DNA from: Solwaraspora sp. WMMA2056
GTDB taxonomy: Bacteria > Actinomycetota > Actinomycetes > Mycobacteriales > Micromonosporaceae
DNA: 64,000 nucleotides
Assembly (NCBI RefSeq): GCF_030345095.1
Contig: NZ_CP128360.1
Coordinates: 6,820,001-6,884,000, forward strand
Reading direction: 5' to 3'
Shown: one piece after another, positions 2,324 through 37,014 of the stretch
How the letters are laid out: every line of letters begins with the position of its first letter
How positions within the stretch are numbered: position 1 is the first letter of the stretch
The notes under the pieces: generated by a model
Told to the model about the DNA's origin: nothing
What the model saw: only the letters and a program-made list of their open reading frames with translations
Databases searched by the model: none
Translations under genes and position numbers: made by a program

Positions 2324-3440
2324 CACGTCGGCCGTCAGCCGCGCTTCGATGGGCATCTGATGCGGGGGTGGGCAGATCGTCGAGGGTCACGGTGCCGTGC
2401 AGCAGCTCGACGACCCGGTCGGCGCTGATCACGCCCCGCCGGTAGGCGCGCATCGCCGCCTGCGCGTACGCCGGGGCGAGCGCCGGAGACCGAAGCTCCT
2501 GCGCGAACCGCGCGCCACGTACCTCGATGTAGTCGCCGACGGTCGGCCGCTGCACCTGCAACAGGTCGCGCTCGGCCCGGGAGATCAGCTCCAAGGTGTA
2601 CGCGTGGGAAACAACCGCCGACCAGTTCACCCGATACTCGGCCGACAGGACGAACAGTCGTTGACGGGGGTAGTCCCACTCGCCCGAAAGCTCGGCCCAG
2701 CGGGCAATGACCGACGGCCCGGGCATCAGGAAGTGGATCGCGAAGGCGTCGATCAACGCTTCCCGCTCGGACCGGCCGGAGCCGCCACTGACGTCCGCCG
2801 CGTACTCGTCGGCGAGCAGGTGGTGACCGAGCTCGTGCGCGAGATTCACCCGCCGCTGACCGGCGATCGCGGCACCGTTGACCAGCGCCACGCCCACTTG
2901 ACCGGTCCGCAGATAGCCGCCGTCGATCACCCCCGGACCCAGGTCGAGCGAGAACGCGAGCAGGCCCAGCCGTTCGACCATCGCCTGCAGGTCGACCAAG
3001 GGGCCGTCTCCGCAGCCGAGCAGGGCGCGCGCTTCGGCCGCGCCGGCTTCCGCTTCGGCGAGTGTGGTGACGCCCGATTGCAGGCCTGTGGCCGCCAGCG
3101 TCAGTGCTCCGACGTCGGACAGCAGCTCGACGTCGCGGCTGACCTGGTCCAGCGCGTCTTCCAGTCGCTGCACGTCATGGTCGGCCGAGATCCCGGCCCG
3201 CCTGCTGGCGAGGGTCTCCGCCGGGACGGTGAGAAACCACTCGACGGTACGGCCGAGCAGCTCGGCGATCCGCGACAGCTCAAGCGCGTCCAGTTGACGC
3301 TGGCCGAGCTCGACACGGGTCAACGCCGAGCGGTGGATGCCGAGTCGTTCGGACAGCTCACGCTGGCTGAACCCGGCCAGCTCGCGGGCGGCGGCCACCC
3401 GGCCACCCACCTCCACCCAGCTTCGCAACGGCGCACGCAT
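2313..3440 (-). CDS. XRE-family regulator fused to ImmA/IrrE metallopeptidase
   Basis: 375 aa from the ATG at 3440 (a GTG one codon earlier is the alternative). Residues about 12-70 form an XRE helix-turn-helix (AGFSQRELSERLGIHRSALT). The C-terminal half is an ImmA/IrrE zinc peptidase domain with the HEXXH motif HELGH near residue 203. Family knowledge: such fusions sense stress or phage signals and cleave or derepress a partner repressor or antitoxin. A perfect 7-bp palindrome (3464-3480) lies just upstream and is a likely autoregulatory site. The gene faces hicAB. A decayed second copy of its 3' part lies at 6136-6460. Confidence 0.85.
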   Translation of the reverse strand: MRAPLRSWVEVGGRVAAARELAGFSQRELSERLGIHRSALTRVELGQRQLDALELSRIAELLGRTVEWFLTVPAETLASRRAGISADHDVQRLEDALDQVSRDVELLSDVGALTLAATGLQSGVTTLAEAEAGAAEARALLGCGDGPLVDLQAMVERLGLLAFSLDLGPGVIDGGYLRTGQVGVALVNGAAIAGQRRVNLAHELGHHLLADEYAADVSGGSGRSEREALIDAFAIHFLMPGPSVIARWAELSGEWDYPRQRLFVLSAEYRVNWSAVVSHAYTLELISRAERDLLQVQRPTVGDYIEVRGARFAQELRSPALAPAYAQAAMRAYRRGVISADRVVELLHGTVTLDDLPTPASDAHRSAADGRRASR

Positions 3441-3463
3441 CACAGCCCCAATCTTGCCTCGCC

Positions 3464-3480
3464 GGTGTGAAAATCACACC
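3464..3480. promoter_or_regulatory. Palindrome upstream of the XRE-ImmA gene
   Basis: GGTGTGA and TCACACC are perfect inverted arms around AAA, ending 24 bp before the start of the XRE gene. Size and place suit an XRE-dimer operator for autoregulation. Binding is inferred. Confidence 0.55.
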
Positions 3481-3541
3481 GCTGAAGGATAGATCGGCAA
3501 GATCTAGTGCGCCTTCCATGCCCCGACAGGTTGCAGCTGTA

Positions 3542-3557
3542 GTACCACCGGCGGTAC
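3542..3557. promoter_or_regulatory. Possible hicAB operator
   Basis: GTACC and GGTAC are inverted arms around 6 bp, ending 10 bp before the hicA ATG. HicB proteins with a ribbon-helix-helix domain often autoregulate from such short palindromes. This is inferred from position. Confidence 0.4.
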
Positions 3558-3566
3558 CATCAAGCC

Positions 3567-3812
3567 ATGCCGTCCGTAGAGAAGCTCGTCGAAGCGATGC
3601 GAAGAAGCCAGCAGAACATCGCCTACAACGACCTCTACCGGGTGTGCGAGCACTACTTCGGGAAGCCGCGACAAGACAGCAGCTCCCATGCGGTGTTCAA
3701 GATGCCCTGGCCAGGCGACCCTCGAGTCAATATCCAAAACGACAAAGGCAAGGCCAAGGCGTATCAGGCGCGGCAGGTGCTCAAGGCGATCGAGAAGAAG
3801 GAGGTGCTGTGA
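3567..3812 (+). CDS. hicA: HicA-type toxin (mRNA interferase-like)
   Basis: 81 aa, toxin-sized. The fold resembles a small dsRNA-binding-like domain; the conserved catalytic-histidine segment is seen as SSSHAVFKMPWPG, followed by VNIQN and KAYQARQVLKAIE, matching the HicA layout. Family knowledge: HicA cleaves mRNA and is held inactive by HicB. The stop TGA (3810-3812) overlaps the ATG of the next gene (3812), the usual translational coupling of toxin-antitoxin pairs. Toxin-first order is normal for hicAB. Confidence 0.82.
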   Translation: MPSVEKLVEAMRRSQQNIAYNDLYRVCEHYFGKPRQDSSSHAVFKMPWPGDPRVNIQNDKGKAKAYQARQVLKAIEKKEVL

Positions 3813-4156
3813 TGCAGTCCGCTGACCGGCCCGAGGTGTCTCACTTCACCTACCGCGTCACGTGGTCGGCCGAGGACGGCGAGTTTCTCGCTACCTGCGC
3901 CGAGTTCCCATCCCTCTCGTGGCTGGCATCCACCCAGATCAAGGCTCTCCAGGGAATCCAGGATCTACTGCGTGAAGTGCTCGCCGACATGGAGGAGCAG
4001 GGCGAGCAGGTGCCGCAGCCGTTCGCTGACCGCAGCTACTCAGGCAAGTTCAACCTCCGCGTCGGAGAGAGCCTGCACCGCGAACTGGCTATCCGCGCCG
4101 CTGAGGATGGCATGAGCCTCAACCAGTACGTCTTGCGAAAGCTCAACGCTGCCTGA
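3812..4156 (+). CDS. hicB: HicB-type antitoxin
   Basis: 114 aa. The N-terminal half is the HicB partial-RNase-H-like fold (YRVTWSAEDGEFLATCAEFP, then a helix ALQGIQDLLREVLADM). The C-terminal half is a ribbon-helix-helix DNA-binding domain (GKFNLRVGESLHRELAIRA, then GMSLNQYVLRKL). It neutralises HicA and probably represses the operon. Start codon and hicA stop overlap as TGATG, so expression is coupled. Confidence 0.85.
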   Translation: MQSADRPEVSHFTYRVTWSAEDGEFLATCAEFPSLSWLASTQIKALQGIQDLLREVLADMEEQGEQVPQPFADRSYSGKFNLRVGESLHRELAIRAAEDGMSLNQYVLRKLNAA

Positions 4157-4234
4157 ACATAGAGCTACCGGCGACCAAGCCCCGCGAGATGGTCCGGCCA
4201 GAGAACCCTGTCGCGCCGCGTTACGGCGAGGGCG

Positions 4235-4783
4235 ATGATCGGGTCCATGACCAGCTTCCCGGCGCAGGCGCGCCGCGTACGCGACAGCACGCTTGCGCCA
4301 CAACGCAGGCTGTCCGCGTTGCGGGAGTGCACCCAGCACTGCGCGCCGTACGGATTCCGCGCCACCTGGCACCACCTGGTCGTCTCCGCGCGCATCCCGC
4401 GCCGGCCGGTCGACGACCCCGGCGCGCTGGTCCGCGCCGTCGACGAACTACAGCGGGTGCGCGACGTGGTCCTGCCCCGCGGAGCCGAGTACGCCGGCCA
4501 GCGCCGTCAGGAGAAGTTGGCTGGCCGGCGGTGCGTACGGACTTCGCCGCCCTGGAACTCGTGGGGCTGGTCGGACATCGCCTACTGCCCCGACCCGGAA
4601 CACCACCCGACAGCACCACTGGAGACGGTCGTCCGGGCGGTCCTCGACCGCCAAGCAGCCGGCGTCAACGCCGATACGCACTGCCTAGCGTGCGGCAAGG
4701 AACGGCGCCAACCCGGCCGCGCCTGCCCGACCTGCGGCGTCCATCCAGCCGGTCGCGCCGGACGCTGGTATGACGGTGGCTGA
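4235..4783 (+). CDS. Hypothetical protein with C-terminal zinc ribbon
   Basis: 182 aa, family not recognised. The last 45 residues hold two CxxC pairs (CLACGKERRQ, then CPTCGVHPAGR), a zinc-ribbon arrangement seen in nucleic-acid-binding proteins of actinomycete mobile elements. The rest is Arg-rich with no catalytic motif I can name. It overlaps the next gene by 14 bp (ATG at 4770), so both are probably one transcriptional unit. The start may also be the in-frame ATG at 4247. Reality is supported by the cysteine pairs and the overlap; the function is unknown. Confidence 0.6.
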   Translation: MIGSMTSFPAQARRVRDSTLAPQRRLSALRECTQHCAPYGFRATWHHLVVSARIPRRPVDDPGALVRAVDELQRVRDVVLPRGAEYAGQRRQEKLAGRRCVRTSPPWNSWGWSDIAYCPDPEHHPTAPLETVVRAVLDRQAAGVNADTHCLACGKERRQPGRACPTCGVHPAGRAGRWYDGG

Positions 4784-5270
4784 CATCGACGAGCTGCTGC
4801 CACCCTCGCGTTCGCCTCGGGACTACCTGGATCTCGTCGCCGATCCTCGGGTCGACCAGGCGGTGTTGCACACCCTGGCAGCCAGCCCGTACTCGTTCGT
4901 GCGCCAAGCGGTCGCCGACCATCCGCTCGCCGACGCACGAACCCTGTCCACTCTGCCGACAGACGACCTCGACCGGTGGGATCGCAACCGCCTGGTCGCC
5001 ACAATCGCGCGGCACCCGAACGCCGACCGGGCGGTGCTGCTCGGCGTACTGGCTGAGACGTTGATGATGCTACGGCTGCCTGACGTCAGGCCGTATGCCT
5101 GTGCCCTCGCCCTCGCGGAGCGTCCCGAGCTTGAGCCTTTCGAGGTGTCAGCCCTCAACGATCAGCCTGGCGCCTCCCGTTGGATGCGCCGCGGTGTGCG
5201 TCGTCGTCTGGCCATGCGTCCACCAGCCCACCGGTCGTTGTCGTCACCGGACTACGCCGATCGATCGTGA
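4770..5270 (+). CDS. Hypothetical protein with helical repeat-like composition
   Basis: 166 aa, not recognised. It contains phrases such as RVDQAVLHTLAASPYSFVRQAVADHP and RLVATIARHPNADRAVLLGVLAE, which recur about every 45 residues and look like two-helix HEAT or leucine-rich-repeat-variant units (a helix, then V/IA-x-HP, then a helix). Such repeats bind proteins. The start overlaps the zinc-ribbon gene. A copy of the 63-bp hairpin repeat lies 79 bp downstream of its stop. Confidence 0.6.
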   Translation: MTVADIDELLPPSRSPRDYLDLVADPRVDQAVLHTLAASPYSFVRQAVADHPLADARTLSTLPTDDLDRWDRNRLVATIARHPNADRAVLLGVLAETLMMLRLPDVRPYACALALAERPELEPFEVSALNDQPGASRWMRRGVRRRLAMRPPAHRSLSSPDYADRS

Positions 5271-5349
5271 TCTGGCTCCTGCCTACTGCGCCGCGCGTGC
5301 TCACGTGCCGGCGGGTGGCCGGGCTGGCTGGTCTGGCATCCAAATGTGT

Positions 5350-5412
5350 CGTCGAGGTGAGGTTGACGCACGTCAAAATCGCGAGGTGAGGTATCTGAGC
5401 CTCACCTCGATG
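5350..5412. repeat. 63-bp hairpin repeat, copy 2
   Basis: Same length and orientation as 2261-2323, with roughly four in five bases identical. Here the arms are CGAGGTGAGG and CCTCACCTCG, and an extra inner GAGGTGAGG offers an alternative shorter hairpin with the same 3' arm. The differences between copies fall in compensating pairs, which suggests that structure rather than sequence is kept. Confidence 0.75.
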
Positions 5413-5509
5413 AAGTCCCCGCCGCCTCAACACCCGTGTCCGCCGCCCGCAGTACGGGCGACGAGCTCTGTCGTCACTTATTCGGGCGATCCCATGACGT
5501 CCGCTTCTC

Positions 5510-6061
5510 TCAGCACTCGTCGTCGTACTCGCTCTCGGGCCGCAACGCCAGCAGGAAGGACACGAAGTCTGGGGCGAGCACGGTCACCTGGTAGTCCCAC
5601 TCTTGATCTACATGGACCACCTGCGGCTCGCCGTCCGGGCCGCAGTCCCGGTAGTCGAACGCGATCATGTCGTGCCCAGCAGAGGGGCAGGTCGCGAAGT
5701 ACACGCCGATCGGCGGATAGGCCCATTCCTCGATCCAGAACCAGCTGCCGGCTTCACCTGCCAGCGAGTATCGCTTCTTCCTCCCGATCCCCATGATGCT
5801 GTCTACGGCGACGTGATCCTGCGCCCATGTGGTCCGGCTCGGCGCAGGGCAGCACGGGTCACGCGGTATCCCGCCGTTGTGCGACCTCATCAGCGTCAGG
5901 TACGACGTCGGCAGACGGAAGCCCAGTTCGGCCTGCACCGATGCGATCAGAGCGTCCGACGGCGGCGCGTCGACGTAGGTGTCAAGCGCGTACTCGCTGT
6001 CGTCCCAGAACGAGGCCACAGCAAGGCCAGGATAGGCGTGCTGGACGAATTCATGGAGCAT
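5510..6061 (-). CDS. SMI1/KNR4 (SUKH) family protein, probable immunity protein
   Basis: 183 aa from the ATG at 6061, preceded by an AAGGAG ribosome site. SUKH signatures are visible: ELGFRLPTSYLTLMRSHNGG, a central Trp-rich stretch, and GHDMIAFDYRDCG then PQVVHVDQEW near the C-terminus. Family knowledge: bacterial SUKH proteins are immunity proteins against nuclease and other polymorphic toxins. No cognate toxin is adjacent, so it may be an orphan immunity gene kept against neighbours' toxins. Confidence 0.8.
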   Translation of the reverse strand: MLHEFVQHAYPGLAVASFWDDSEYALDTYVDAPPSDALIASVQAELGFRLPTSYLTLMRSHNGGIPRDPCCPAPSRTTWAQDHVAVDSIMGIGRKKRYSLAGEAGSWFWIEEWAYPPIGVYFATCPSAGHDMIAFDYRDCGPDGEPQVVHVDQEWDYQVTVLAPDFVSFLLALRPESEYDDEC

Positions 6062-14286: not shown

Positions 14287-15090
14287 ATGGCGCGCTGGCG
14301 ACCGGCAGCCGTGCTGGCACTGCTGAGCGTGCTGGCCGTAGTCGGCGGTTGCGTGGACGAAAATGAACCACCTCCACCGCGACACCAGCTCGATGTCGTC
14401 GTCAACATCTTCCCAATTCACTGGTTGGCCGAGCAGATCGGCGGCGATGTCGTCTCCGTACAGTCGATTGAGGCAGAGCCGCACGAGCACGGCGACGAAG
14501 CCGACCACGAGACCCAACTGTCCGAGCCAGACAAGGAGCTGATCCGGCAGGCTGACGCAAACCTATTCGCTGGCAACATGTCCTCTGACCTGCGCAAGAC
14601 GCTCACTGACTGGCAACAAAAGAACCCAGAAGCGCGCCTCTACGATATCTCCGAGCTCAAAAAGCTCGACCTGAAACCAGGCCCACCTGAGCTGGCGGAA
14701 GACCTGGTCGCCGACGGCTTGGACCCGCATTTCTGGATGGATCCCCTGCGGATGACACACGCCGCACAATGGGTGAATAACCAACTCCTCTCCGCAGTTT
14801 CCCTGGATGAAGCACTCAAGACATCCGCGCCGGAGTACAGGGAGGAGATGCAGGGTCGGCTCGAAGACGTCAAAGAAACGCTCGAGAAGCTGCACGACGA
14901 GCTCGACGACCCGATCTTGAAAGGGTGCAGCGGCCGGTCCATCGTGCCTGAGCACCCGGCGTTCATGTACCTGGCCGAGCAGTACGACCTGCATCAGTTC
15001 GCCGTATCGAGTCTGTGGAGCAAGGACCTAACCCCCCAGGTACGCAGCCAACGGGAGAAGGATCTCGAGGAACTCTTCCGGTCCGACCCG
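14287..15090 (+). pseudogene. Metal-binding (ZnuA/TroA-like) lipoprotein, 5' part, split by ISAs1
   Basis: 268 codons. A lipoprotein signal peptide ends in the lipobox LAVVGGC. The body resembles periplasmic zinc/manganese-binding proteins: VVVNIFPIHWLAEQIGGDVV, an acidic-His loop PHEHGDEADHE, DPHFWMDPLRMTHAA, and SIVPEHPAFMYLAEQYDL. The frame runs into ISAs1 at 15091 and ends there artificially. The remainder is intact at 18772-19002 in the same phase: removing the IS and one copy of its 10-bp duplication restores a 344-aa protein. It was probably the substrate-binding subunit of a metal ABC importer, but no permease or ATPase gene is nearby. Confidence 0.85.
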
Positions 15091-15095
15091 CAGGG

Positions 15096-15872
15096 CTATT
15101 GCGTTGTCGGGTAACTGCTGGTCACGGCGGTGATCAGGTCGTGTGATCGGCGGTTGGCTTGGCGGGTTGCCCGGGCGATGTTGGTCGCCCCGGTGGTGCG
15201 GTGCCAGCCGATCGCGGTGTTACGCAACGTGGCGAGAACGGCGGGTCCGGTGCCGGTCCGGGCCTGGTGAAGGTCTTCACGGAACGTCACGTCGCGTACG
15301 TGATGGACCTTGTTCTCGATGTACCAGTGTCGACGTATCCAGCTCTGCAGATCGCGGGGCAGGGCTTCGCCGGCGGGCAGCGACACGGTCAGATAGGCCG
15401 TCTCCCGGCTGGTTCTACCAGCGACGATGCGAGTCCGGGTGATGCACACGGCTTGCTGGGCGTACGGGAAGGCGATACCACCGGGGGTCGCGACGGTGAC
15501 GGCCTTCACGGTGCGGGTCTCCCGGCGGCCGTGACCACGGTCGCGAGTCCGGTCACCCACCGGGACCCGTGCCCAGGGCAGTCCTTTCAGTTGCTTGAAC
15601 AGGGTCGGCTGGTTGGCCTTCACCTGCACGAGCAGGTGTGCTCCACGGGCGGTGACCTCGTCGGCGTGACGGGTCTGGGTGTGCAGGGCGTCGGCGATGA
15701 ACAGCACCCCGGTCAGGGAGCCGAGTACCTGTTCGACGGCGTCGAGCAGCGGCGCGAACGATGTGATCTCGTTGCTCTTCGTGTCCACGGTGACCTGGGC
15801 GATCACGATCCCGGTGGTGGTGTCCAGGGCGGACAGCAGATGCACCGTGCGGCCGTCGCCGGTGCGGGAGCC
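15096..15872 (-). pseudogene. ISAs1 transposase, 3' exon
   Basis: The C-terminal 258 codons of the transposase, starting with GSRTGDGRTVHLLSALDTTT and including the catalytic-region phrases ADALHTQTRHADEV and VRDVTFREDLHQARTGTGPA. Apparently identical to the same part of the intact copy at 35621-36832. It would be rejoined to 18178-18612 only if the intron splices. Confidence 0.92.
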
Positions 15873-15913
15873 GTCGGGTAGCCCCGGCGCATTGCTGCGC
15901 CGGGGCCCCCTCA

Positions 15914-15947
15914 GAACCGGACGTGCGACTTCCACCGCATCCGGCTC
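15914..15947 (-). ncRNA. Group II intron domain V
   Basis: A 34-nt hairpin beginning GAGCCGGATGCG and ending CGCACGTCCGGTTC, with the AGC catalytic triad, a GGAA-type tetraloop segment and the expected 2-nt bulge region. The stop codon of the intron-encoded protein (15946-15948) overlaps its first two bases. Confidence 0.92.
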
Positions 15948-17520
15948 AAGCAAGTCCCGTGGGCGGTCGCAGGGTGTAAGGCGCGGGGCCTGGTGCTGCG
16001 GGTGTGTCCGGTGGCAGTCGGCGTCGTCGTCGCTGTCGCCAGTAGTAGGTCAGGGCCGGGTCGTCCGGAGACGCGTCGGCGTTGACCATCTGGTGTCGGC
16101 GGATGGGCGTCCAGGACAAGCGGGTCAGGCAGGCGCCGGTGTCCCGGTCACCGAAGAGCCATCGGTCTTGCCTGGTCGGGTGAAACCGCCCGAAGTAGCG
16201 GTTCACGATCCATCGGTAGGACTTCGTCTCGTGCCGGTGTCGGGCCCACTTGAGCATCGTCCAGACGAGCGTGGAGTCGATGTCGTTGAAGACCTTCTTG
16301 GACACGACCGTGCGGTAGTACGCGGCCCAGCCCCGCAGGATCGGGTTGAGTCTGCTGATCACGGCGATCGCGTTCGCGCCGTAGAGGTTGCGGACCTCGG
16401 TCCGCAGCCGGGCGCGGAACCGCTTGACGGCCGCTTTCGACGGTGTGATCAGCAGTTTCCCGGGATTGCGGTAGTGGCGGACGGTGAAGCCGAGGAAGTC
16501 GAACCCGTCGGACAAGTGCACGATGCGTGTCTTGTCCTCGTTGAACGTCAGTCCTCGCGGCGCCAGCCACTGGACGAGGCGTTGCTTGACCTGTTCGGCC
16601 TGCTCCCGGGTGGAACAGAGCGCGACCAGGTCGTCGGCGTATCTGACCACGACCGGGGTTCCGGGCACCGACCAGCCCCGATGCGACGGGGTGGTCTGCT
16701 GCCGGGCCCCGGCTGCTGTCTCGATCCCATGCAGGGCGATGTTCATCAGCAGCGGGCTGATCACTCCGCCCTGCGGGGTGCCCTCCTCGGTCGGGGCGTA
16801 CTGCCGGTTCTCGACCACACCCACTTTGAGCCACCGGGCGACGGGTTCCCTGGCGGGGAATCCGTGCAGGTGGCCCAGGAGCCGGTCATGGTCGATCCGG
16901 TCGAACGCCGCTGTCAGGTCCGCGTCGAGGATCCATGCCCGCTTCGGGTTCTTGCCCTTGCAGACGGCGAAAATCGCCTCGACCGCGTCATGACACCCCC
17001 GGCCGGGTCGGAAGCCGTAGCTCCTCGACTCGAACCGGGCCTCCCATTCGGGCTCCAGCGCGTTGAGCACCACGGCTTGCGCTGCCCGGTCGGCGATCAC
17101 GGGGATGCCGAGCGGACGCCGTTTGCCGTTGGCCTTCGGGATGTAGATCCGGCGGACGGGCCGGGCCATCGGCCGACACCCGCGCTGCTGCACCCAGCGG
17201 GCGAGATCCACCCGCTCGGGACCGGTCAGCGCGGTCCGGCCGTCGACCCCTGCCGTCGCTCGTCCCTGGTTGACCTGCGCGACCCGGCGCGCACTGAGTA
17301 ACGCGTTTGCCCGGGACCGCAGCATCAACCGTTGCAGACTACGCACCTTGCGGTGCGCTCCTGCCTGCGACGCCGTGAAGATCCGCTGGCGCAGCCGCCG
17401 TACTTCCTCCTCCGCCTGGGTCCAGTTCACCTGGTCCCAGTCGTCGGGAAAGCCCTGCGCTCCGTTCACCGCCGAAACGGCGGCGTCCAACGTCCCCGCA
17501 GGCGCTGACGTCATGCCCAT
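15946..17520 (-). CDS. ltrA: Group II intron reverse transcriptase/maturase
   Basis: 524 aa from the ATG at 17520, chosen because GGAG lies 6 nt upstream; the frame is open further but that part is domain I-III RNA. Reverse-transcriptase blocks are clear: RRIYIPKANGKRRPLGIPV, YGFRPGRGCHDA, ILDADLTAAFDRIDH, GTPQGGVISPLL, and the active site VVRYADDLV. The maturase (X) region follows (GFDFLGFTVR, LRGWAAYYRTVV). The C-terminus ends in an Arg-rich then Pro-rich tail with no CxxC/HNH endonuclease motifs, so the En domain usual in many relatives is missing. It helps splicing and retrotransposition of the intron. Confidence 0.93.
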   Translation of the reverse strand: MGMTSAPAGTLDAAVSAVNGAQGFPDDWDQVNWTQAEEEVRRLRQRIFTASQAGAHRKVRSLQRLMLRSRANALLSARRVAQVNQGRATAGVDGRTALTGPERVDLARWVQQRGCRPMARPVRRIYIPKANGKRRPLGIPVIADRAAQAVVLNALEPEWEARFESRSYGFRPGRGCHDAVEAIFAVCKGKNPKRAWILDADLTAAFDRIDHDRLLGHLHGFPAREPVARWLKVGVVENRQYAPTEEGTPQGGVISPLLMNIALHGIETAAGARQQTTPSHRGWSVPGTPVVVRYADDLVALCSTREQAEQVKQRLVQWLAPRGLTFNEDKTRIVHLSDGFDFLGFTVRHYRNPGKLLITPSKAAVKRFRARLRTEVRNLYGANAIAVISRLNPILRGWAAYYRTVVSKKVFNDIDSTLVWTMLKWARHRHETKSYRWIVNRYFGRFHPTRQDRWLFGDRDTGACLTRLSWTPIRRHQMVNADASPDDPALTYYWRQRRRRRLPPDTPAAPGPAPYTLRPPTGLA

Positions 17521-18177
17521 CACCATCTCCACAGACTCACCTGACCCGCGTGGGCTCCCTCTCGGGCCGGGCACCACCGCGCCAACGACGCGGCGCTGCC
17601 CGTATCCGGTCGGTTCGACACCACACGGCCAGGAGGCGGCCGCACCTGTGATGCCCTTCCCGTCGCCTTTCGGCATCCCGGCCTTCGCTTCTCGGGTCAT
17701 CCTGTTCCCGGCCAGGACTTCCGCCTTCCTCACGGTCGGCCTACCAGCCGCTGAAGCTGGACCTGGACGGGGTTTCCACGTTCCGCATGCATGAGACACG
17801 CACGGATAGGGCGCCCTCTGTACCCCGGGGACGATGGTGCTCCCCCAGCAGCGTTGCGTTCCACCGCCGGCATCCGCCGCTTCGCAGCGGCCAGTCCCTG
17901 ATCTCGGCCCGGTCCCGCTTCCCTCCACCCGGACCTTCAAGATGACGAGGCATCAACCAAGGGTTCACTCACGTTCGCCCGCCCGTACTTCTCCTCACCC
18001 GTAGCCCTCGGAAGGAACGAGGACCCTTCGGCTTGAACCCTGGGCTCCGCACCCCGCAGTCACCCGCGACGCACGCCAGGGAGGAGACCGGCCACCGAGC
18101 ACGGACCGGGGATCACGTCACCACGAGGGCACCTCCTCCGCCGTGATCCACTCAACACATGCGACCTCGTGTCGCAC

Positions 18178-18612
18178 ACGCAACGACTTGCCGTCGATGG
18201 CGATCACCGTGCGGTACCGCCTCGGGGTGGTCACCTGGGCGGGAGTGCGGGCACTCAGCCAGCCGGCGAGGACGGTGCCGAGCAGCGTGTCGTCGAGGCG
18301 GGTCAGCAGCCGCCAGACGGTGCTGCCGACCGGCACCCCCGCGGTGAAACCGAGCCGCCGCTGTGCTTGTGTGTCCAGGTCGTGCAGCCAGTCGGTGATC
18401 GCGGCGAACGATGACGCCCCGGCCATGACGGCACAGACCGCCACCGCCAGCAGCGGGGTCAGCGGGTACCGCACGCCTCGTGGGTCGCGTGGATCGGGAA
18501 CAGCGGTCAGCGCGTGTAGTAGACCGCTGCGTTCACCGTCGGTGACTGGCACTGCCTCCGCGATCGAGGCGGGTGCCGCTACGGCCAGTGCGGGAGTGAG
18601 GGATGATGCCAT
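18178..18612 (-). pseudogene. ISAs1 transposase, 5' exon
   Basis: N-terminal 145 codons (MASSLTPALAVAAPASIAEA onward) ending at VIAIDGKSLR, the first conserved catalytic-Asp block. The intron begins immediately after this block, so without splicing the product loses nearly the whole DDE domain. Unspliced reading adds about 20 intron-encoded residues and stops. Confidence 0.92.
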
Positions 18613-18771
18613 CGGCGGGTGGGGTCTTTCTCGGAGTCATGAAGCGTCGCAACTCCATGATCACCGATGCGGCCTCACCCGCTTCTCGCGACTCCGTAGA
18701 GGCCGAACTGCTCACGAAATACCTGGTCAGCGGCCTGCCGGCCGACTACGCAATCACCCTGGTCCGACCCG

Positions 18772-35342: not shown

Positions 35343-35471
35343 CGTTGACCGGTAGGGCGGCTTCCGCAGAGCCTGCCGCCGGCGGTCATGGGAGGCATCC
35401 GGCGGCGGCTGGCGACGCTCCCGCACCACTGGAAGGGATGCTTCCCGTTACGGCAACCACCCCCTGCCTCC
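35343..35471 (+). promoter_or_regulatory. Shared promoter module, copy 3, upstream part (cut by ISAs1)
   Basis: It carries a diverged GCCTGCCGCCGGCGG hairpin like that at 29656, then the GGAAGGGATGCTTCCCGTTA hairpin arm, ending in CCCTGCCTCC, one copy of the ISAs1 target duplication. The rest of the module continues at 36838. Confidence 0.65.
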
Positions 35472-36837
35472 CAGGGTGATTGCGTAGTCGGCCGGTAGGC
35501 CGCTGACCAGGTATTTCGTGAGCAGTTCGGCCTCTACGGAGTCGCGAGAAGCGGGTGAGGCCGCATCGGTGATCATGGAGTTGCGACGCTTCATGACTCC
35601 GAGAAAGACCCCACCCGCCGATGGCATCATCCCTCACTCCCGCACTGGCCGTAGCGGCACCCGCCTCGATCGCGGAGGCAGTGCCAGTCACCGACGGTGA
35701 ACGCAGCGGTCTACTACACGCGCTGACCGCTGTTCCCGATCCACGCGACCCACGAGGCGTGCGGTACCCGCTGACCCCGCTGCTGGCGGTGGCGGTCTGT
35801 GCCGTCATGGCCGGGGCGTCATCGTTCGCCGCGATCACCGACTGGCTGCACGACCTGGACACACAAGCACAGCGGCGGCTCGGTTTCACCGCGGGGGTGC
35901 CGGTCGGCAGCACCGTCTGGCGGCTGCTGACCCGCCTCGACGACACGCTGCTCGGCACCGTCCTCGCCGGCTGGCTGAGTGCCCGCACTCCCGCCCAGGT
36001 GACCACCCCGAGGCGGTACCGCACGGTGATCGCCATCGACGGCAAGTCGTTGCGTGGCTCCCGCACCGGCGACGGCCGCACGGTGCATCTGCTGTCCGCC
36101 CTGGACACCACCACCGGGATCGTGATCGCCCAGGTCACCGTGGACACGAAGAGCAACGAGATCACATCGTTCGCGCCGCTGCTCGACGCCGTCGAACAGG
36201 TACTCGGCTCCCTGACCGGGGTGCTGTTCATCGCCGACGCCCTGCACACCCAGACCCGTCACGCCGACGAGGTCACCGCCCGTGGAGCACACCTGCTCGT
36301 GCAGGTGAAGGCCAACCAGCCGACCCTGTTCAAGCAACTGAAAGGACTGCCCTGGGCACGGGTCCCGGTGGGTGACCGGACTCGCGACCGTGGTCACGGC
36401 CGCCGGGAGACCCGCACCGTGAAGGCCGTCACCGTCGCGACCCCCGGTGGTATCGCCTTCCCGTACGCCCAGCAAGCCGTGTGCATCACCCGGACTCGCA
36501 TCGTCGCTGGTAGAACCAGCCGGGAGACGGCCTATCTGACCGTGTCGCTGCCCGCCGGCGAAGCCCTGCCCCGCGATCTGCAGAGCTGGATACGTCGACA
36601 CTGGTACATCGAGAACAAGGTCCATCACGTACGCGACGTGACGTTCCGTGAAGACCTTCACCAGGCCCGGACCGGCACCGGACCCGCCGTTCTCGCCACG
36701 TTGCGTAACACCGCGATCGGCTGGCACCGCACCACCGGGGCGACCAACATCGCCCGGGCAACCCGCCAAGCCAACCGCCGATCACACGACCTGATCACCG
36801 CCGTGACCAGCAGTTACCCGACAACGCAATAGCCCTG
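35472..36837 (+). mobile_element. ISAs1-family element, copy 2 (intron-free)
   Basis: 1366 bp with ends CAGGGTGATTGCGTAGTCGG and, inverted, CAGGGCTATTGCGTTGTCGG (17 of 20 match). Flanked by a perfect 10-bp target duplication CCCTGCCTCC (35462-35471 and 36838-36847). It lies inside the promoter module of the intact HTH-TPR gene. Confidence 0.95.
35621..36832 (+). CDS. ISAs1-family transposase
   Basis: 403 aa, intact. N-terminal DDE_Tnp_1-associated domain (LHALTAVPDPRDPRGVRYPL, then GASSFAAITDWLHDL); catalytic blocks VIAIDGKSLRGSRTGDGR, GVLFIADALHTQTRHADEV, and the C-terminal HWYIENKVHHVRDVTFREDL. This is the transposase whose other copy is interrupted by the group II intron. It ends 5 bp before the IS terminus. 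Confidence 0.95.
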   Translation: MASSLTPALAVAAPASIAEAVPVTDGERSGLLHALTAVPDPRDPRGVRYPLTPLLAVAVCAVMAGASSFAAITDWLHDLDTQAQRRLGFTAGVPVGSTVWRLLTRLDDTLLGTVLAGWLSARTPAQVTTPRRYRTVIAIDGKSLRGSRTGDGRTVHLLSALDTTTGIVIAQVTVDTKSNEITSFAPLLDAVEQVLGSLTGVLFIADALHTQTRHADEVTARGAHLLVQVKANQPTLFKQLKGLPWARVPVGDRTRDRGHGRRETRTVKAVTVATPGGIAFPYAQQAVCITRTRIVAGRTSRETAYLTVSLPAGEALPRDLQSWIRRHWYIENKVHHVRDVTFREDLHQARTGTGPAVLATLRNTAIGWHRTTGATNIARATRQANRRSHDLITAVTSSYPTTQ

Positions 36838-37014
36838 CCCTGCCTCCCCTCTTGACATTTACGTGTTGACGTATTCCCTGGCAGGGTCAGGAATTGCTCG
36901 ACGCAGATGGTTGAAGGCGGCATTCACCAGGTGGGATACTGTCCAAAGTCGATTACCGCCACAGGCAGTTCGCGGCATCACGCATCAGATCGTGCGCCAC
37001 ACTTCGGGGGTGTC
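36838..37014 (+). promoter_or_regulatory. Shared promoter module, copy 3, downstream part
   Basis: It starts with the second CCCTGCCTCC, then TTGACA/TTGACG boxes and the promoter TTGAAG (36911-36916)-18 bp-GATACT (36935-36940). Nearly identical to 31450-31626. The core promoter is therefore still attached to the gene despite the IS insertion. Confidence 0.72.

Follow-up and report, generated by a model that had tools for sequence, protein, structure and literature searches.

Bacterial group II introns are known to reside within insertion sequences (IS). ISRm2011-2 of Sinorhizobium meliloti, host of the intron RmInt1, is an IS630-type element. RmInt1 is described as a class D intron, whose in-frame stops make splicing necessary for the mobility of its host, and which has been proposed to limit the IS (PMC4238363). 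Its reverse transcriptase (RT) lacks the endonuclease (En) domain, and the intron prefers the lagging-strand template, with priming at the replication fork (PMC8914252). The introns of Thermosynechococcus elongatus, according to Mohr et al. (PMC2882425), form families which differ by their exon-binding sites (EBS) and match clades, and for some of them the insertion site is a conserved position within an IS or a further intron. The locus described here belongs to the same kind of arrangement: in a stretch of 64,000 nucleotides from Solwaraspora sp. WMMA2056 (NZ_CP128360.1, positions 6,820,001 to 6,884,000; "the window", whose own coordinates are used throughout), a group II intron interrupts the transposase gene of an ISAs1 element. 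Its features are listed in Table 1.

The boundaries of the intron can be read from a second, intron-free ISAs1 copy. In the occupied copy the 5' exon ends with AAGTCGTTGCGT, the intron starts with GTGCGACACGAGG and ends with CTACCCGAC, and the 3' exon starts with GGCTCC; the intron-free copy reads AAGTCGTTGCGTGGCTCC across the junction. The 2305-bp insert and a single base outside the open reading frame (ORF) account for all differences between the two copies, the exon ORF sequence being the same in both. An earlier reading of this DNA, made from its letters alone ("the sequence-only reading"), had placed coordinates and junctions correctly to the base, and its sizes (1366 + 2305 = 3671 bp) and its two perfect pairs of 10-bp target duplications are found again here. 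The insertion, which it had located after IAIDGKSLR, is in phase 0, between IAIDGKSLR and GS. Followed into the intron, the frame of the 5' exon runs for 19 codons before the first of five stops; because these in-frame stops close it within the intron, the transposase message needs splicing, as had been claimed. The host scores 147.6 bits with NCBIfam NF033564 (transpos_ISAs1) on its 3' exon (cut-off 70) and 45.7 bits on its 5' exon by itself, and features the inverted repeats and the 10-bp target duplication typical of ISAs1. By DNA search, two ISAs1 copies of this type are present in the 7,010,427-bp single-contig genome; the intron is found there in one full copy, with weaker partial matches at 478 kb and 3.17 Mb.

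Table 1. Coordinates of the features described in the text, with their strand and the evidence for each
Feature	Position	Strand	Evidence and remarks
ISAs1 insertion sequence with intron, 3671 bp	15091..18761	-	NCBIfam NF033564 on both exons; ends CAGGGTGATTGCG / CAGGGCTATTGCG
Target site duplication GTCCGACCCG, 10 bp, low-coordinate side	15081..15090		read in sequence
Target site duplication GTCCGACCCG, 10 bp, high-coordinate side	18762..18771		read in sequence
5' exon of transposase ORF, 145 codons	18178..18612	-	Pfam DDE_Tnp_1_assoc; ends ..IAIDGKSLR
3' exon of transposase ORF, 258 codons + stop	15096..15872	-	DDE_Tnp_1, transpos_ISAs1; starts GSRTG..
Group II intron, 2305 bp, GTGCGACACGAGG...CTACCCGAC	15873..18177	-	comparison with intron-free copy, D5-D6 model, covariation, fold
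5' 640 nt of intron, region of domains I-III	17538..18177	-	RNAalifold on 66 rows
Domains V and VI (D5-D6)	15873..15949	-	Rfam RF00029; 62-row fold
Intron-encoded RT/maturase	15946..17514	-	RVT_N, RVT_1, GIIM; TIGR04416; inferred start ATG 17514
EBS1, intron 319-324, ACGCAA	17854..17859	-	covariation
EBS2, intron 236-240	17938..17942	-	covariation
EBS3, intron 358	17820..17820	-	covariation, 0.91 observed vs 0.30 expected
IBS1 (intron-binding site 1), TTGCGT	18178..18183	-	covariation
IBS2	18186..18190	-	covariation
IBS3, first base of 3' exon	15872..15872	-	covariation
Intron-free ISAs1 copy, 1366 bp	35472..36837	+	sequence comparison; intact 403-aa ORF 35621-36829
Target duplications of intron-free copy, CCCTGCCTCC, 10 bp	35462-35471 and 36838-36847		read in sequence
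Empty homing site in intron-free copy	36043..36056	+	junction 36055/36056; same letters as occupied site
ZnuA-like gene disrupted by the IS	14287..15090	+	profile match stops at 188/263

Every sequence test applied to the insert fits, and supports, its identification as a group II intron. Its ends, GTGCG...GAC, agree with the 5' GUGYG / 3' AY consensus at the exact exon junctions. RF00029 matches D5-D6 with 58.9 bits (gathering score 40), and the fold of this region, on 62 rows, has 30 pairs, 16 of them changed on both sides, with 97.0% of cells paired. For the 5' 640 nt, 172 pairs are predicted, 134 changed on both sides, and 94.9% of cells are paired. When the columns were shuffled, pairs changed on both sides numbered 31, 38 and 40 in three controls. 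As covariation supports both the 5' fold and D5-D6, the lack of domains in 15873-18177, which the sequence-only reading had named as evidence against itself, is not what folding returns. No interruption affects the RT/maturase ORF, which contains a YADD motif and scores 337 bits with TIGR04416 (cut-off 300); as query, RT searches used either 15946-17499 or a longer open frame reaching 17940. The intron is probably self-splicing. Its ends, RT/maturase, D5-D6, fold and EBS-IBS pairing, together with the NF033564 match of the host, uphold the view of a group II intron in an ISAs1 transposase.

The pairing between intron and exons was evaluated by covariation. Relatives were taken from the genus and from a wider collection of genome contigs (best 80 of 293 relatives), for 93 loci including the window, numbered with "L" (genomes with "G"); for 70 of the 93 the 5' end could be placed together with 20 nt or more of exon. 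In the first 680 nt of 65 introns with distinct exons, 30 exon positions were compared with every column, giving 26,640 cells. Ranked by excess Watson-Crick pairing, the top 13 cells comprise six of EBS1 (exon -1 to -6 with intron 319-324), five of EBS2 (-9 to -13 with 236-240), one of EBS3 (+1 with 358) and one extra contact (-14 with 234). Their excess lies between about 0.61 and 0.30, compared with 0.234 at the 99.9th percentile of the whole set of cells; the 14th cell, also at about 0.30, is part of no run. EBS1, EBS2 and EBS3 are therefore all present by covariation, which amounts to exon recognition of the IIB type. In the window EBS1-IBS1 is paired with the ISAs1 exons at 6 of 6 positions and EBS3-IBS3 at 1 of 1. 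Introns pair with their own exons at a mean of 9.0 out of 11 positions (G-U counted), against 4.6 for mismatched intron-exon combinations. The extra contact, at 18191 (exon) and 17944 (intron) in the window, shows 0.89 observed against 0.33 expected pairing; it lies outside the antiparallel EBS2 register, and may be formed at the base of the EBS2 loop.

The same intron is found in Micromonospora sonchi (L047; also L128 and L146 in G246), at the same codon boundary, between DGKTLR and GA, of a diverged ISAs1. The introns are identical at 2171 of 2305 nt (94.2%), the exons at 305 of 435 (70.1%, 5') and 606 of 777 (78.0%, 3'). Since the intron is far more alike than both exons, the comparison, as judged from these identities, shows that it has moved between ISAs1 lineages. 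The "recent moves" deduced in the sequence-only reading are reasonable for the IS copies, which differ by one base; for the intron, movement between IS lineages is what the comparison brings out. Between the two species exon -6 changed from T to C and intron 324 from A to G, so that both sides changed and pairing was kept. A further copy, 87% identical, without recognisable 5' end and interrupted in D5, is present in Kineosporia babensis (L048).

Among solved structures, the encoded RT is nearest to 6me0, which we take to be the T. elongatus TeI4 RT, with 332.8 bits; the second-best structure scores 129.4. Past the last block common to 6me0, which is matched up to residue 485 of 562, the window RT continues for only about 20 residues; a C-terminal DNA-binding/HNH endonuclease part was not found in the window RT by comparison with 6me0 and the 93 RT rows. 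Most relatives continue for about 60–80 C-terminal residues, with CxxC or HNH-like motifs: CxxC..H..C is present in this part of 47 of the 93 rows, and an HNH-like LVH..CHxQ tail was recognized by eye in 21 of the other 46. The window RT belongs to a five-row clade (support 100/100), where the C-terminal zinc-finger or HNH-like part is absent from the window, L047, L048 and L049, while the fifth row, L050, is not judgeable from its translation. It is also absent from the IS701 rows L063, L075, L076 and L100, and from L042. En-lacking RTs are placed outside the B/CL/ML lineage by Toro and Martinez-Abarca (PMC3552965): if the window RT is CL-like, the domain has, on this ground, probably been lost.

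On these data, we assign a probability of about 0.86 to the reading in which a mobile IIB-type group II intron entered the ISAs1 transposase gene between IAIDGKSLR and G, with maturase-aided splicing and EBS-guided retrohoming. With help from the maturase the intron would splice, and the transposase message would be restored. EBS-IBS pairing would direct the particle of excised intron and RT to empty ISAs1 copies; the intron, once reverse-spliced into their sense strand, would be copied by the RT. Because the RT is devoid of a C-terminal nuclease part, as is that of RmInt1, priming would probably occur from nascent DNA at replication forks. When the intron is unspliced or poorly spliced, transposase would not be made and the IS would move little; in this sense, the IS would be silenced by its intron, for which RmInt1 offers a precedent.

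Relatives of the intron were examined for their host genes, by looking for matches within 90 nt of the junction at the 83 of 93 loci with a readable flank on at least one side. A transposase or TnpB adjoins the intron in 38 of the 83, belonging to 12 families: IS630 (11 loci), IS1380 (6), IS701 (4), IS5 (3), ISAs1, IS1634, IS4, IS110, IS21 and TnpB (2 each), IS1182 and Tn3-like (1 each). Orientation is sense in all 38; 14 of them are representatives, sense by construction, and the remaining 24 out of 24 are independent. Representatives were named by NCBIfam; IS701, IS5, IS21, IS1182, Tn3 and the L115 TnpB score below the curated cut-off (part proteins or distant). For four of the 83 (L086, L093, L113, L117) the host is another group II RT. 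A Pfam tally of 113 flank pieces (25 of 41 families listed) agrees in kind with this count; its WbqC-like piece corresponds, by eye, to L119.

On a maximum-likelihood RT tree of 91 rows, the 13 site groups need 14 changes (12 being the least), against 37.7 with shuffled labels; the groups were drawn by hand from junction motifs, 37 rows are in none, and near-copies inflate the clustering. The exceptions are the IS1380-upstream and RT groups, with three changes each, and the two IS1634 rows, which are not one resolved branch. On this tree, RT clades appear for the most part to keep to a single site within a single kind of gene, and the site-faithful clades reach across many actinobacterial genera. 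By eye, and with presumed catalytic residues, the junction lies within about 7 codons of a catalytic Asp/Glu in 7 of the 12 host families (ISAs1, IS630, IS701, IS4, IS5, IS110, IS21); a tendency of insertion sites towards catalytic motifs is suggestive only.

A number of observations weigh against the proposed mobile, splicing intron. The window EBS2-IBS2 is paired at only 4 of 5 positions, and in M. sonchi EBS1 pairs at only 5 of 6, being broken at exon -4. The intron looks, by genome search, rare compared with its target: ISAs1 relatives occur in 136 of 354 genomes of the host's family (E no higher than 1e-30, with a maximum of five scored matches for each genome), and the exact junction pattern, a search which variants of the pattern would escape, in four, of which two are real, its own and M. 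sonchi G246. The other two matches, L127 and L130, are due to chance and gave neither an ISAs1 nor an RT match, while in L147 an ISAs1 is broken by an insert whose reading frame, judged by eye, resembles the IS110 family. Conservation of the target offers no help: in 18 ISAs1 rows, two of which (L047 and L146) are one element, the 15-nt target takes rank 582 among 1195 windows, with mean pairwise identity 0.80 against 0.78 overall, so that its choice for DNA conservation is unsupported in ISAs1. Among the relatives, 41 of the 83 introns have no transposase/TnpB or RT match beside them; of these, L043, L079 and L101 look like transposase sites by eye, L087 adjoins a DDE_5 frame, and NCBIfam names hemC at L041 and a methyltransferase at L067. 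Splicing, like mobility, is inferred from sequence. Lastly, the empty site, about 17 kb away, matches the occupied one exactly.

Replication-fork orientation was considered as the cause of the empty copy. With dnaA at 1.036 Mb, and assuming a circular chromosome with the terminus opposite dnaA, the sense strand of the occupied copy runs with the fork (lagging-strand template), and that of the empty copy does not; sampled GC skew agrees only weakly with this fork direction. The same dnaA-based test in the relatives, scored without the G001 contig that has no dnaA and without loci on draft contigs, shows no clear bias, and speaks neither for nor against priming at forks. Introns lacking the C-terminal domain run with the fork in 3 of 4 cases (window, L075 and L076, not L042), the others in 5 of 9 (L034, L035, L064, L077 and L119, not L037, L044, L057 and L065): 3/4 against 5/9 gives no result for this explanation.

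The uninvaded site of identical sequence would also be expected if the intron were a recent arrival, no longer splicing or moving, within a dead IS copy. Poor splicing is known, less than 1% of exons being correctly spliced for RmInt1 (PMC4238363); yet the RT ORF is uninterrupted, D5-D6 and the EBS pairings are in place, and the exons equal the free copy within the ORF, all of which makes a dead element unlikely. Selection of the intron as an adaptive brake or switch, limiting transposition, would agree with the closure of the transposase frame 19 codons into the intron, and Chillon et al. propose the same for RmInt1 (PMC4238363). The data, however, do not separate selection for silencing from simple parasitism, and two IS copies in the genome are too few to judge; we consider this still less probable. 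Least probable of all is a passenger which entered ISAs1 once and has since been carried along solely when the whole IS transposed as DNA or was transferred horizontally. In its favour, the perfect target duplications enclose the intron as well, so that intron and IS may well have travelled together, and a single full intron copy is present. Against it, had the two descended together, the intron would not be expected to show higher identity than both of its flanking exons, as it does in the comparison with M. sonchi.

For the relatives as a whole, a broader picture is put forward tentatively, as possible rather than probable. They may represent an actinobacterial IIB clade of site-faithful lineages, with EBS fixed on one site and gene family, mostly in mobile genes and often beside catalytic codons (following the first Asp in ISAs1, immediately preceding the catalytic Glu in IS630), plus another lineage homing into D5: intein-like, RNA-guided parasites of transposons.

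Inserts starting with GTGCGCCGTGAGGCGC are found at the same D5 point, directly after CACGTCCGGT, in clade introns of three different hosts (L042:3858-6281, L048 from about 4600 onward, L051 from about 3180 onward). The L042 insert is itself a group II intron: it encodes an HNH-bearing RT and has an Rfam D5-D6 of its own, and beyond it the outer intron resumes. For L048 and L051 the reading covers the start of the insert. The catalytic hairpin D5 seems to be the homing site of a twintron lineage; in the window intron this site is empty. A different group II intron (L141:2762-5170), featuring an RT with an HNH-like end and an Rfam match, splits an ISAs1 of G294 within the Gln codon of its KGNQPT stretch; as this intron is unrelated and at a different site, ISAs1 is hit by at least two kinds of group II intron.

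Other loci show features of their own. At L041 (G001:C1, near 2.50 Mb) the end of the relative abuts the reading frame of hemC (hydroxymethylbilane synthase), and splicing there would be indispensable to the cell if the genome has no other hemC. Nine Streptomyces introns (L066, L068, L069, L081-L084, L088, L104) share a target with the 5' exon end CTCAGT (CTTAGT in L066, CTCGGT in L104) and C as first 3' exon base. L034 (G005) contains two clade 5' ends about 1.2 kb apart (2224-2470 and 3423-5966), the first match stopping after about 250 nt. As for the gene disrupted by the occupied IS, located at 14287-15090 and beyond 18771, other ZnuA matches are located at 3.03, 2.40 and, partial, 5.45 Mb of the genome.

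The occupied and the empty ISAs1 in one genome are a natural pair for measuring the control of a host IS by its intron, and the comparative set shows covariation of guide (EBS) and target (IBS) across 65 introns. The clade pattern makes it testable whether introns parasitic on transposons come to occupy catalytic codons in the manner of inteins, and whether loss of the nuclease domain goes with IS hosts. In the open-access literature, represented by titles and the beginnings of abstracts, no paper was found treating the window intron or the site pattern of the clade. The arrangement itself is already known, RmInt1 being the direct precedent; the window adds a well-formed example and an unusually clean comparative demonstration.

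Like RmInt1, the window intron is IIB-like, encodes an RT without En, and lies inside an IS transposase gene, with in-frame stops (PMC4238363, PMC8914252). RmInt1, compared here by description, is of class D and its host an IS630-type element, whereas the window intron resides in ISAs1 and its RT is nearest to that of TeI4 among solved structures. With the T. elongatus TeI introns it shares the IIB type with EBS1, EBS2 and EBS3, and some of those introns also occupy a conserved site in an IS (PMC2882425). The window RT differs from TeI4 by the absence of the C-terminal part of 6me0, and the TeI families are found in one genome, whereas the site-faithful clades of the window intron span many actinobacterial genera. 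IStrons, too, join an intron ribozyme to an IS (PMC4227781), but theirs is a group I ribozyme, moved by the IS, while the group II intron of the window has its own RT and interrupts the transposase.

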